From positions 96,641 through 160,640 of the forward strand of contig CALFVX010000001.1 of NCBI GenBank assembly GCA_937928765.1: a DNA stretch of 64,000 nucleotides. The letters are read 5' to 3'. The stretch is from an uncultured Endomicrobiia bacterium. Its GTDB lineage: Bacteria; Elusimicrobiota; Endomicrobiia; DTEH01. Shown in pieces: positions 50,959-55,599 of this stretch (its first letter is position 1; each line of letters opens with the position of its first letter). The notes below the pieces were generated by a model. It had not been told where the DNA came from, searched no databases, and worked only from the letters and a program-made list of their open reading frames with translations. The position numbers and the translations under genes were made by a program.

Positions 50959-51531
50959 ATGAAAGAAAAAATTATAAATTTGTTAAATGAAAGTATTAAA
51001 GTAAAACAACTCTATGTTCAAAATGAAATACAGCTTGATGTCCTTTTTAAAGTTATAGAAAAAATAATAGATTGTTATAAAAAAAATAAGAAACTTATAG
51101 TATTTGGCAATGGTGGTTCTGCTGCAGACGCACAACATTTTGTTGCAGAACTTATAGGTAGATTTAAGAAAGAAAGAAAGCCTCTTAAAGCTATTTCTTT
51201 AACAACAAATACTTCTACTATAACTGCTTTATCTAACGATTATGGTTATGATATTTCTTTTAGTAGACAACTAGAAGCCTTTGCTGAAGAAGGTGATGTA
51301 GTTGTTGGGATTTCAACAAGTGGTAATGCAATAAATGTTTTAAGAGCCATAGAATTAGCAAAAAGTTTAGGTTGTATAACAGTTGGGTTAACTGGTGAAA
51401 AAGGAGGAAAACTTAAAGATATTGTTGATTATTGTATTAATGTTCCAACAAATGATACTCCAAGGATACAGGAGCTACATATTACGATAATACATATAAT
51501 ATGTGATATAGTAGAACAAAAAATTTTTTGA
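50959..51531 (+). CDS. gmhA: D-sedoheptulose-7-phosphate isomerase GmhA
   Basis: First enzyme of ADP-heptose synthesis, converting sedoheptulose 7-phosphate to heptose 7-phosphate. A single SIS domain with 'VFGNGGSAADAQHFVAELIG' at about 49-68, 'SLTTNTSTITALSNDYGYD', 'VVVGISTSGNAINVLRAIE' and the catalytic-helix 'DTPRIQELHITIIHIICD'. Length 190 is normal. AGGAG precedes the ATG. rfaE2 follows ten bases later; the kinase (hldA/rfaE1) and phosphatase (gmhB) are not in the window. The product points to LPS inner core or a heptose-containing surface glycan. Confidence 0.95.
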   Translation: MKEKIINLLNESIKVKQLYVQNEIQLDVLFKVIEKIIDCYKKNKKLIVFGNGGSAADAQHFVAELIGRFKKERKPLKAISLTTNTSTITALSNDYGYDISFSRQLEAFAEEGDVVVGISTSGNAINVLRAIELAKSLGCITVGLTGEKGGKLKDIVDYCINVPTNDTPRIQELHITIIHIICDIVEQKIF

Positions 51532-51540
51532 TAAATTATT

Positions 51541-52050
51541 ATGATTGTATCATTAAAAAAATTAAAAAAAATATTGTATAAATTAAAAAAAATAAAAAAG
51601 GAAATAGTTTTTACTAACGGATGTTTTGACATAATTCATTTAGGCCACATTACTTTACTTAAAAAAGCAAAAAGTTGTGGTGATGTTTTAATAGTAGGAC
51701 TAAACAGTGATAGTTCTGTAAAAAAATTAAAAGGTAAAAAACGGCCTATACTTCCACAGTATGAACGAGCAAGAATTATTGATAGTATAAGATATGTTGA
51801 CTATGTTATTATTTTTGACGAATTAACTCCTTATAAATTAATAACAGAACTTAAACCAGATATTTTAGTAAAAGGTGGAGATTATAAATTAAAAGATATA
51901 GTAGGTTGGGGGATAGTTCCTAAAATTATAAGAGTAAAGTTAGTTAAGAACAAATCTACAACTAATATTTTAGAAAAAATTAAAAAAATGTATTTAAAAG
52001 GTAAGAAAAATGGAATATGTAAAAGAGAAATGGTCAACAGAAGTTTTTAG
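51541..52050 (+). CDS. rfaE2: Heptose 1-phosphate adenylyltransferase (RfaE2/HldE C-terminal type)
   Basis: Nucleotidyltransferase that makes ADP-D-glycero-D-manno-heptose from heptose 1-phosphate and ATP. The cytidylyltransferase signature 'FTNGCFDIIHLGHITLL' contains the HxGH active site at about 34-37, followed by 'VGLNSDSSVKKLKG' and 'LVKGGDYKLKDIVGWGIV'. It is a stand-alone domain of 169 residues without the N-terminal kinase of fused HldE. Its last 13 codons overlap the acsD start by 41 bases, and those residues look like read-through rather than a conserved tail. Confidence 0.94.
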   Translation: MIVSLKKLKKILYKLKKIKKEIVFTNGCFDIIHLGHITLLKKAKSCGDVLIVGLNSDSSVKKLKGKKRPILPQYERARIIDSIRYVDYVIIFDELTPYKLITELKPDILVKGGDYKLKDIVGWGIVPKIIRVKLVKNKSTTNILEKIKKMYLKGKKNGICKREMVNRSF

Positions 52051-52957
52051 TCTAGTAATAGGTGCGACAAAAGATAATGGTGGAACAAGAAATAAAGTTT
52101 TAAAAATAGGTGGACAAAAAACACTAGCATTTTTAAAATTTGAAGGAGAAACACCAAATAAACCTATAGTTTTAGCTGAAGTTTTAGATTTTTTACCTGA
52201 AGATTTGTGGCCTACTTTTTATAAAAAATTTGAAAATATAGTGAAAGAACCATTGTTGTGGATAAAAGAAATAGAAAGTTCAAATCCTGATGGTATATGT
52301 ATTCGTCTTTTATCTTGTCATCCAGATATGAAGAATAATTCTAAAGAGTATCTAAAAAAATTTATTCCTGAAGTTTTAAAAACAACAAAGTTGCCACTTA
52401 TAATTTTAGGCAGCGGACATATTGAAAAAGATGCTGAAATTTTACCTTTTGTAGCTGAACTTACTAAAGGAGAAAAAATTCTTCTTGGCATGGCAGTAAA
52501 AGAAAATTATAAAACAATAATATCTTCATTAATTAATTTTGATCATTCAATTATTGTAGAGACACCACTTGATATAAATTTAGCTAAACAACTTAATATT
52601 CTGGTTACTGATTTAGGATTTCCATTAGATAGAATTGTTATGCATCATACTACTGGCGGGCTAGGATACGGATTTGAATATTGTTATTCTATAATTGAAA
52701 GATGTCGCTTAGCTGCTTTACAAGGAGATAAAGTTATGTCAACACCTATAATAAATTTGATTTCAGAAGAAACATGGAAAACAAAAGAAGCAAAATCAGC
52801 TGAAGATCTCTCTTGGGGAGAAGATGAGATAAAAAGAGCAATAATATGGGAAATTACTACAGCATTAGGATATTTACATGCAGGGACCGATATTTTAGTT
52901 CTAGCTCATCCTGAGAGTATTAGAAAAGTTAAAAGTATAATAGATCAAATAGAATAA
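52010..52957 (+). CDS. acsD: Acetyl-CoA decarbonylase/synthase delta subunit (corrinoid/Fe-S protein small subunit)
   Basis: Small subunit of the corrinoid iron-sulfur protein, which passes a methyl group to acetyl-CoA synthase in the Wood-Ljungdahl pathway. The TIM-barrel family signature is clear: 'KWSTEVFSLVIGATKDNGGT' near the start, 'PNKPIVLAEVLDFLPEDLWP', 'PLIILGSGHIEKDAEILP', 'MHHTTGGLGYGFEYCYSIIE' and 'EITTALGYLHAGTDILVLAHPES'. Length 315 is normal for bacterial AcsD. The ATG at 52010 is chosen because the conserved region begins only six residues later, even though it overlaps rfaE2 by 41 bases. No acsA, acsB, acsC, acsE or cooC is in the window, so the gene is separated from its usual cluster. 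Confidence 0.9.
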   Translation: MEYVKEKWSTEVFSLVIGATKDNGGTRNKVLKIGGQKTLAFLKFEGETPNKPIVLAEVLDFLPEDLWPTFYKKFENIVKEPLLWIKEIESSNPDGICIRLLSCHPDMKNNSKEYLKKFIPEVLKTTKLPLIILGSGHIEKDAEILPFVAELTKGEKILLGMAVKENYKTIISSLINFDHSIIVETPLDINLAKQLNILVTDLGFPLDRIVMHHTTGGLGYGFEYCYSIIERCRLAALQGDKVMSTPIINLISEETWKTKEAKSAEDLSWGEDEIKRAIIWEITTALGYLHAGTDILVLAHPESIRKVKSIIDQIE

Positions 52958-53028: not shown

Positions 53029-53661
53029 ATGGAACGAAGATATTTAAAAGGCATAATAGAAACCTTACTTTTTATCACAGACAAACCTTTAAGTAAACAA
53101 AAAATTGTTGAACTAATAGATGACAAAGAAACTACAATAGAAGTTGTCTCTGAACTATTAGACGAACTTATTACAGATTATCTAAAATATTCTTCACTGG
53201 AAATAAGACAAGTAGCTGAAGGATACCAGATTGCAACAAAACCAGAATTTGCAGAATATGTAAGAAAATTGTATAAAGAAAGAACATTATTAAAATTATC
53301 ACCTGCTGCTGTTGAAACATTAGCTATTATAGCATATCGTCAACCTGTTACAAAAGCAGAGATTGAAGAAACACGCGGTGTTGACAGCACAGCTGTTATA
53401 GAAACATTACTTGAAAGAAAACTTATAAAAATAGTAGGTAGAAAAGAAGTAATAGGAAGACCTCTTATTTATGCAACTACACAAGAATTTTTAAAATATT
53501 TCGGATTAAATTCATTGTCAGATCTTCCTCCTATAGATCAGTTTATAGAAGAAAATACAGAAAATGAACAACAGGAAAATTTTCAAGAAAGTATTTCTGA
53601 AGTTATTAATGATGAACAAATAACTAACCATGATATAGTTGAAAATAAAGAAAATAATTAA
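53029..53661 (+). CDS. scpB: Segregation and condensation protein B
   Basis: Kleisin-associated winged-helix protein that binds ScpA and SMC to compact and segregate the chromosome. Two winged-helix regions are seen: residues 1-80 ('KGIIETLLFITDKPLSKQKI') and 85-165 ('LSPAAVETLAIIAYRQPVTK', 'RGVDSTAVIETLLERKLIK', 'GRPLIYATTQEFLKYFGL'). The acidic, low-complexity tail (about 176-210) is typical. Length 210 is normal. scpA is not adjacent. The ATG has no clear ribosome site; the next gene starts five bases after the stop. Confidence 0.95.
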   Translation: MERRYLKGIIETLLFITDKPLSKQKIVELIDDKETTIEVVSELLDELITDYLKYSSLEIRQVAEGYQIATKPEFAEYVRKLYKERTLLKLSPAAVETLAIIAYRQPVTKAEIEETRGVDSTAVIETLLERKLIKIVGRKEVIGRPLIYATTQEFLKYFGLNSLSDLPPIDQFIEENTENEQQENFQESISEVINDEQITNHDIVENKENN

Positions 53662-53666
53662 AATTT

Positions 53667-54593
53667 ATGAATTTAGGAATATCTACTATATATTTTTCTA
53701 AAGATATTATTAATAGAAAAATTTCATGGGATGTATTAATTGACAATTTGAAAAATTTAGAGATAAATTGTGTAGAACTAAATACAGATATTCCTGTTGA
53801 TTGGATGAAATATATTTATAAAAGTGTAAAAAATAAAGAAGTAAAAGTTTTGTCTTTACACAATTTCTGTCCTGCTGTAGAAAATATTCCAAAAGGTAAG
53901 TTTGGATTTAATGTTTATTCTTTAACTTCTGATGACGAAAATGAAAGAAATCTTGCGTTAGAATACACTCTTAGAACTATTAGTTATGCTTTAGAACTTA
54001 ATGCTGAAGTTGTAGTTTTACACTTAGGTGAAATTAAAACAGAACCATCAGCTGAAGAGTTTTATAAATTTGTATTAAATTTTGGGATAGGTTCAAAATT
54101 GTATATTCATTATAAAAATTCTCTTATTAAAACAAGGCAAATAAATAAACAAAAATATTTTGATTTACTCTATTTTTCTTTAGATAAAATAATAAAATAT
54201 GCTGAAGATAATGATGTTAAATTAGGTATAGAAACAAGATTTTATCCTAATGAAATACCAAATTTTTTAGAGATAAAAGAGATAATTGATCATTATAAAA
54301 GCAAAATTTTATTTTATTGGCATGATTTTGGCCATGCAGAAGTTCAAACAAAGTTGGGTTTTATAGAAACACATAAAAAATATTTTGAAGAATATAGTGA
54401 TAAATTAATTGGATATCACATACATAATTTAATAGGATATAAAGACCATTTTTCTCCAATCAACGGAGAAATTAAATTTGAAGAGTTATTAAGTTACAAA
54501 AAAGATAAAATTTATATTTTAGAAGTGCATAGTAAAGAAAATTTTGAAAATTTTAAAAATGGAATAAAATTTATAAAAAATATCTTAAAATAA
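53667..54593 (+). CDS. TIM-barrel sugar isomerase/AP endonuclease 2-like protein
   Basis: A 308-residue protein of the xylose-isomerase-like TIM barrel family, a divalent-metal fold. Visible strands and ligands include 'MNLGISTIYFSKD' at the N terminus, 'VKVLSLHNFCPAV', 'AEVVVLHLGEIKTE', 'VKLGIETRFYPNEIPNF', 'LFYWHDFGHAEVQ', 'LIGYHIHNLIGYKDHFSPIN' and 'IYILEVHS'. The His/Glu pattern (IETR, HDFGHAE, HIHN, LEVHS) matches sugar phosphate isomerases/epimerases better than DNA repair Nfo. The substrate is not known; placement before galT suggests carbohydrate metabolism. Confidence 0.83.
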   Translation: MNLGISTIYFSKDIINRKISWDVLIDNLKNLEINCVELNTDIPVDWMKYIYKSVKNKEVKVLSLHNFCPAVENIPKGKFGFNVYSLTSDDENERNLALEYTLRTISYALELNAEVVVLHLGEIKTEPSAEEFYKFVLNFGIGSKLYIHYKNSLIKTRQINKQKYFDLLYFSLDKIIKYAEDNDVKLGIETRFYPNEIPNFLEIKEIIDHYKSKILFYWHDFGHAEVQTKLGFIETHKKYFEEYSDKLIGYHIHNLIGYKDHFSPINGEIKFEELLSYKKDKIYILEVHSKENFENFKNGIKFIKNILK

Positions 54594-54603
54594 GGAAAGA
54601 TTT

Positions 54604-55599
54604 ATGAGAGAATTTCGTAGAGATCCTGTTATAGGAAGGTGGGTAATAATTTCTTCTGAACGTGCAAAGCGTCCTTTTGCATTTTCAAAATATGAACGAG
54701 AAAAAAATAATATAGAAGAATGTCCATTTTGTTGGGGAAACGAAAAATTTACCCCGCCAGAGATTGTTTCTTACAGACAACAAGGAACTCAAAAAGATAC
54801 TCCAGGTTGGTGGATAAGAGTTATACCTAACAAATATCCTGCATTACGTATTGAAGGTGAAGTTATAAGACAAGCAGAAGGTATATATGATAAGATTACT
54901 GGCATAGGCGCTCACGAAGTTATAATAGAAACACAGCATCATGATAAAGACATATACGAATTAGAATTGCAATATGTTGAAGATATTTTTAAAATTTATA
55001 GAGACAGAATTTTAGATTTAAAACGAGACATACGATTTGAATATATTTTAATATTTAAAAATTGTGGATATCAAGCAGGAGCAACATTGTCTCATCCGCA
55101 TTCACAGCTTATTGCAATGCCTATGGTACCAGTAAGAATTAAACAAGAAATATTTGGTGCTTTGAAATATTACGAATACAAGGAAAGATGTGTTTTTTGT
55201 GATATTATAAATTATGAACTACAACAAGGATCAAGAGTTGTTATAGAAAACAACGATTTTGTTGCAATATGTCCTTATGCAAGTAGATTTCCTTTTGAAG
55301 TGTGGGTCTTACCTAAAAGGCACGACCCTATATATGAAGATATCCATTCTGACGAATTAAAAAATTTAGCTACTATTATGCAAATAATAAATAAAAAATT
55401 AAACTTAGCATTAGATAATCCTCCTTATAATTATTTGTTACATACTTCTCCACTTAAAGAATTAAATCTTAAACATTACCATTGGCATTTTGAAATAATA
55501 CCAAAACTTTCAGGTGTTGGCGGATTTGAATGGGGGACAGGATTTTATATTAATCCTGTACCTCCAGAAGAAGCAGCAAAGTTTTTAATAGAAGTATGA
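54604..55599 (+). CDS. galT: Galactose-1-phosphate uridylyltransferase-like protein
   Basis: HIT-superfamily enzyme of the Leloir pathway, exchanging UDP between UDP-glucose and galactose 1-phosphate. Zinc-binding 'CPFCWGNEKFTPPE' is at about 40, the N-terminal 'RDPVIGRWVIISSERAKRP' is diagnostic, the nucleophilic histidine motif reads 'SHPHSQ' at about 162-167, and the second half has 'CVFCDI' and 'HWHFEIIPKL'. Length 331 is normal for the bacterial type. AAGGAAAG precedes the ATG. It overlaps the HEAT-repeat gene by four bases (ATGA), so the two are coupled. A related ADP-glucose phosphorylase activity cannot be excluded. Confidence 0.92.
   Translation: MREFRRDPVIGRWVIISSERAKRPFAFSKYEREKNNIEECPFCWGNEKFTPPEIVSYRQQGTQKDTPGWWIRVIPNKYPALRIEGEVIRQAEGIYDKITGIGAHEVIIETQHHDKDIYELELQYVEDIFKIYRDRILDLKRDIRFEYILIFKNCGYQAGATLSHPHSQLIAMPMVPVRIKQEIFGALKYYEYKERCVFCDIINYELQQGSRVVIENNDFVAICPYASRFPFEVWVLPKRHDPIYEDIHSDELKNLATIMQIINKKLNLALDNPPYNYLLHTSPLKELNLKHYHWHFEIIPKLSGVGGFEWGTGFYINPVPPEEAAKFLIEV

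Follow-up and report, generated by a model that had tools for sequence, protein, structure and literature searches.

The corrinoid iron-sulfur protein (CoFeSP) is usually regarded as the methyl donor of acetyl-CoA synthase (ACS), and the occurrence of the gene for its small (delta) subunit, acsD, behind a pair of ADP-heptose genes raises the question whether the Wood-Ljungdahl pathway is intact in the organism concerned, or whether AcsD is redundant, a remnant or repurposed. The gene lies in a window of 64,000 nucleotides (the whole stretch of DNA analysed; bases 96641-160640 of contig C1) of G000, a draft metagenome-assembled genome (MAG) of the Endomicrobia (Elusimicrobiota), which comprises 1.54 Mb in 47 contigs and is 96.5% complete with 0.18% contamination. 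Evidence on this genome comes from named profile searches and from parts of C1 and of those contigs on which its acs and folate genes lie; its relatives include G008 (SKYB98) and G009 (SKYB53), both in the same genus, and G006, in another genus of the same family. Over half of the window (positions 1-35827; C1 74403-132467, continuing upstream) is occupied by a giant open frame of about 19,350 uninterrupted codons; it begins with a segment resembling a signal peptide, includes at least one bacterial Ig domain (PF17957) and is probably the gene of a secreted protein.

The acsD open reading frame (positions 52010-52957, forward strand) encodes 315 aa and scores 348.4 bits against NF003376, the NCBIfam model of the acetyl-CoA decarbonylase/synthase delta subunit (cut-off 280), and 267.8 bits against the solved CoFeSP small subunit 4djd_D, the match spanning residues 6-314, that is, a member of the subfamily over its full length. 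Six relatives have start codons in line with its own at 52010, and the motif AAAAGGT (51996-52002, forward strand), 8-14 bases upstream of the ATG and within the tail of the preceding gene, may be its ribosome-binding site. Those relatives of this acsD that bear a name are Endomicrobia and Elusimicrobia MAGs. It is a single-copy gene: PF03599 matches just two proteins in G000, namely AcsC, the large subunit, and the AcsD of the window. A second acsD, or a complete acs cluster elsewhere with an acsD of its own, which would have made this copy redundant, was looked for by the same search and is absent.

Upstream on the same strand lie a gmhA-like sedoheptulose-7-phosphate isomerase gene (50959-51531; TIGR00441, 202.2 bits, cut-off 209.45) and rfaE2, the gene of heptose-1-phosphate adenylyltransferase (51541-52050; TIGR02199, 181.4 bits, cut-off 181.5, residues 14-149 of 169), which form the new upstream neighbourhood of acsD; with scores about at the cut-offs, the heptose assignment of the pair may be called fair. 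The open reading frame list and the sequence bear out the 41-base overlap described in the first-pass annotation: the end of rfaE2 and the start of acsD share positions 52010-52050 of the forward strand in different frames. There is no stop in rfaE2 ahead of acsD, into which it runs out of frame, and its last 20 or so residues (150-169), the whole overlap included, lie beyond the family model and are unconserved. The overlap can be read as a side effect of the new junction, where rfaE2 has no stop of its own, and acsD may be co-transcribed with rfaE2 and translationally coupled to it.

That the junction is new follows from the gene order of the relatives. The gene before acsD is folD in both G008 and G009 and rfaE2 in G000. 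On the other side of acsD, scpB (53029-53661, forward strand; PF04079, 183.1 bits), a TIM-barrel protein gene and a galT-like gene (together 53667-55599, forward strand) stand in the same order as in G008, and this side of the breakpoint is intact. Two G008 contigs, C71 and C25, have the same 141 bp of metF at their ends and can therefore be joined into a single row, acsB-rnfC2-metV-metF-fchA-...-folD-acsD-scpB. The left part of this row is found in G000 on contig C12 as fhs-[spacer]-rnfC2-metV-metF-fchA-...-folD, with thiamine genes (identified by eye) behind it; the right part, from acsD and scpB onwards, is found in the window. Gene order thus places the breakpoint between folD and acsD and shows the junction to be a rearrangement. 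The displacement suspected in the first-pass annotation is thus upheld; its recency is not, for what the nearest genomes show is that they lack the junction, which gives it no date.

The acs and folate genes of G000 lie dispersed, at four sites distributed among three contigs. The gene acsC (L003:11804-13141; NF003195, 470.3 bits, cut-off 306) supplies the partner large subunit, with an intact N-terminal FeS cysteine motif, and is adjoined on contig C15 by acsV, the gene of the CoFeSP reactivator (NF040756, 608.5 bits). The methyltransferase gene acsE is on C12 (279.6 bits, cut-off 259; 233 bits to the solved methyltransferase 2yci), where fhs, rnfC2-like, metV-like, metF, fchA and folD genes are also present and intact, so that a full methyl branch (Fhs, FchA, FolD and MetF together with AcsE) is encoded. 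The arrangement of MetF, MetV and RnfC2 is like that of A. woodii. At L071:4714-7309 an RnfC2-like protein of 662 aa, the N-terminal part of which also has a MetV-type domain (PF12225), stands beside a separate MetV-like gene; in this MTHFR complex MetV has apparently undergone both duplication and fusion. It may be added that acsV adjoins a branched-chain aminotransferase gene in four genomes of the family (L003:8925-11794, L068:365-3165, L069:6619-9433 and L070:9960-13103). Near the acs and folate genes no riboswitch hinting at control by methionine or B12 was found, only tRNAs.

The picture is different for the carbonyl half. No match to PF03598 was found in G000, this model covering only AcsB residues 325-484, so that a C-terminal fragment like the one of G006 (see below) would escape it; the same search recovers AcsB in G007, G008 and G009 (E<=1e-47) and in six further genomes of the class. 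Likewise, PF03063 (CooS/AcsA) has no match in G000, G006, G008 or G009; its one clear match, in G007, is the only CooS among the five genomes of the family. In G008 acsB lies before rnfC2; in G000 this place, between fhs and rnfC2, is a non-coding spacer of 839 bp (L071:3875-4713) with 16% GC and no open reading frame longer than 90 aa, and no acsB remnant is discernible in it, the best AcsB match, 18.5 bits, falling within the range of shuffled spacers (15.8-21.2). Judging from these searches, G000 is apparently without acetyl-CoA synthase. Hence the Wood-Ljungdahl pathway is not intact, and the separation of acsD from acsABCE, as first described, holds for acsC and acsV on C15 and for acsE on C12, whereas neither AcsB nor CooS came up in the searches. 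Genes for a NikR-like regulator, a TonB-type receptor and a metal-type ABC transporter, recognised by eye at L020:351-3676, may point to uptake of nickel, even though the two nickel enzymes, ACS and CODH, are missing from the genome.

A second genus of the family presents a similar case. G006 has no PF03598 match either; upstream of its acsD there is an acsB fragment (L013:6814-7368, the same as L066:8166-8720) corresponding to AcsB residues 553-738 only, which is 51-54% identical to intact AcsB, is interrupted by two in-frame stops, lacks one codon and has the A-cluster motif CGC changed to CIC, about 550 residues having been lost. Its acsD, acsC and acsV are full length, the latter two lying away from acsD. 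Going by genus classification, the ACS losses in G000 and G006 are independent, since the genus of G000 contains two AcsB-bearing genomes; the acs gene tree, with support values of 38-46, leaves this unsettled.

Is AcsD, then, a remnant? The G000 protein is full length, and residues that ACS-bearing relatives conserve are retained in it. In codon models of acsD, acsC and acsV from seven genomes, the omega of the G000 terminal branch is 0.011, 0.075 and 0.036, respectively, values that are rough because synonymous sites are saturated, and neutral evolution of this branch is rejected for all three genes (2dlnL 12.1, 8.9 and 19.4), even if the selection recorded may predate the loss of acsB. A two-ratio test detects no change of omega in acsD (2dlnL 0.01). 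The remnant option is therefore not supported, and AcsD may have been repurposed: apparently it is neither redundant nor decaying, and its predicted place is in a methyl-transfer module lacking its usual acceptor.

It might still be argued that ACS was lost so recently that the leftover acsC, acsD, acsE and acsV are functionless and their decay has yet to begin. In keeping with this, AcsD has somewhat longer branches in G000 and G006 (protein distances of 0.27 and 0.36, against 0.12-0.17 in ACS-bearing relatives), and the omega of acsC is slightly raised when both branches are taken jointly (2dlnL 10.5), features that could reflect a first relaxation or, alternatively, release from contact with ACS. 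Nevertheless, had acsC, acsD and acsV of G006 decayed at the pace of its acsB fragment, they should contain about 15 stops, and none is observed; moreover, the genes have been kept in two genera, and nothing of acsB is left at the syntenic spot in G000. A recent loss with inert leftovers is thus unlikely.

Somewhat less likely is that acsB, and perhaps cooS, moved from its place before rnfC2 into an unassembled or unbinned part of the genome and that acetyl-CoA is still made or cleaved. G000 and its relatives are all draft MAGs, in which acsB or a methionine synthase may sit in missing sequence (G000 being in 47 contigs and 96.5% complete), and in G007-G009 acsB is on a contig other than that of acsC or acsD, the contigs being short in G008 and G009. 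Yet the place that acsB occupies in G008 is contiguous in G000 and lies empty between fhs and rnfC2; CooS went undetected in four of the five family genomes, and in G006 acsB can be seen decayed within its own genome.

The reading preferred here, which is fairly probable, is that G000 lost the carbonyl half of the pathway (AcsB, CooS) and keeps the methyl half, methyl-AcsCD serving an acceptor other than ACS. Plausibly, on the gene content, formate would be carried to methyl-THF by Fhs, FchA (cyclodeaminase), FolD and MetF with its MetV and RnfC2-like subunits, and thence to the cobalt of AcsCD; AcsE would methylate this cobalt, AcsV would re-reduce it upon oxidation, and methyl-AcsCD would donate the methyl group to an acceptor that is not ACS. 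A module running in reverse for energy, from an outside methyl donor to AcsCD through an unrecognised methyltransferase, to THF through AcsE and on to formate through MetF, FolD, FchA and Fhs, is very unlikely, for although every folate step from methyl-THF to formate is encoded, including an RnfC2-type MetF complex, the stretches read showed no recognisable donor-specific methyltransferase beside the module genes, and CoFeSP is not known to accept methyl groups from such enzymes.

For a methyl half running towards methyl-AcsCD, the likeliest candidate acceptor would be homocysteine, through a methionine synthase outside the models searched. G000 has no match to MetH (PF02574). It has none to the MetE-type or core synthase model PF01717, which is also silent in Methanosarcina acetivorans, so that divergent core synthases can escape it, and none to the PRK06052-type model NF004712, which gave no match either in the Dehalococcoidia genome taken as a potential positive control, its sensitivity for MesB being thereby unproven. 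A core methionine synthase gene, as MesB-type CoFeSP-dependent methionine synthesis would need, was accordingly not found by these models in G000; the sister genome G009 carries an ordinary MetE. As no MetH, MetE-type or PRK06052-type synthase was detected, it is reasonable to regard the feeding of an unrecognised methionine synthase as the simplest useful role that the module could have, methionine auxotrophy of G000 being another possibility.

Compared with the CODH/ACS system of acetogens such as Moorella (AcsABCDE plus AcsV), AcsC, AcsD, AcsE and AcsV of G000 are of the same families and the folate branch is complete, but AcsB and CooS are lacking, therefore acetyl-CoA would be neither synthesised nor cleaved, and the genes are scattered. 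The partial pathway of Dehalococcoides mccartyi includes AcsBCD without CODH and the core methionine synthase MesB, and CoFeSP has been proposed as its methyl source for methionine (PMC7005905, PMC7857596). Both organisms thus have a truncated pathway without CO dehydrogenase, yet the truncations are opposite: Dehalococcoides has AcsB and is without AcsE and MetF, whereas G000 has AcsE and MetF, is without AcsB and yielded no MesB-like gene. A role of CoFeSP apart from ACS is also implied by the core methionine synthases MesB and MesC, predicted users of methyl-CoFeSP (PMC7857596), from which G000 differs in having no PF01717 or NF004712 match.

In the literature searched, a limited collection, no case came up in which CoFeSP is retained while AcsB is missing. 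One may tentatively go further and suggest, with considerable doubt, that a free-standing folate-to-corrinoid system of AcsE, AcsCD and AcsV has outlived ACS at least twice in Endomicrobia and feeds a methyltransferase not yet described, perhaps a methionine synthase of a new class. Be that as it may, ACS-less genomes, one of them with an acsB pseudogene, that keep the parts for loading and repairing CoFeSP open a way to ask for its other methyl targets. Moreover, the Wood-Ljungdahl pathway may here be seen in stepwise dismantling within one family, from G007 with ACS and CODH, through G008 and G009 with ACS and no detected CODH, to G000 and G006, with neither a functional ACS nor a detected CODH, in which the corrinoid protein has been kept.
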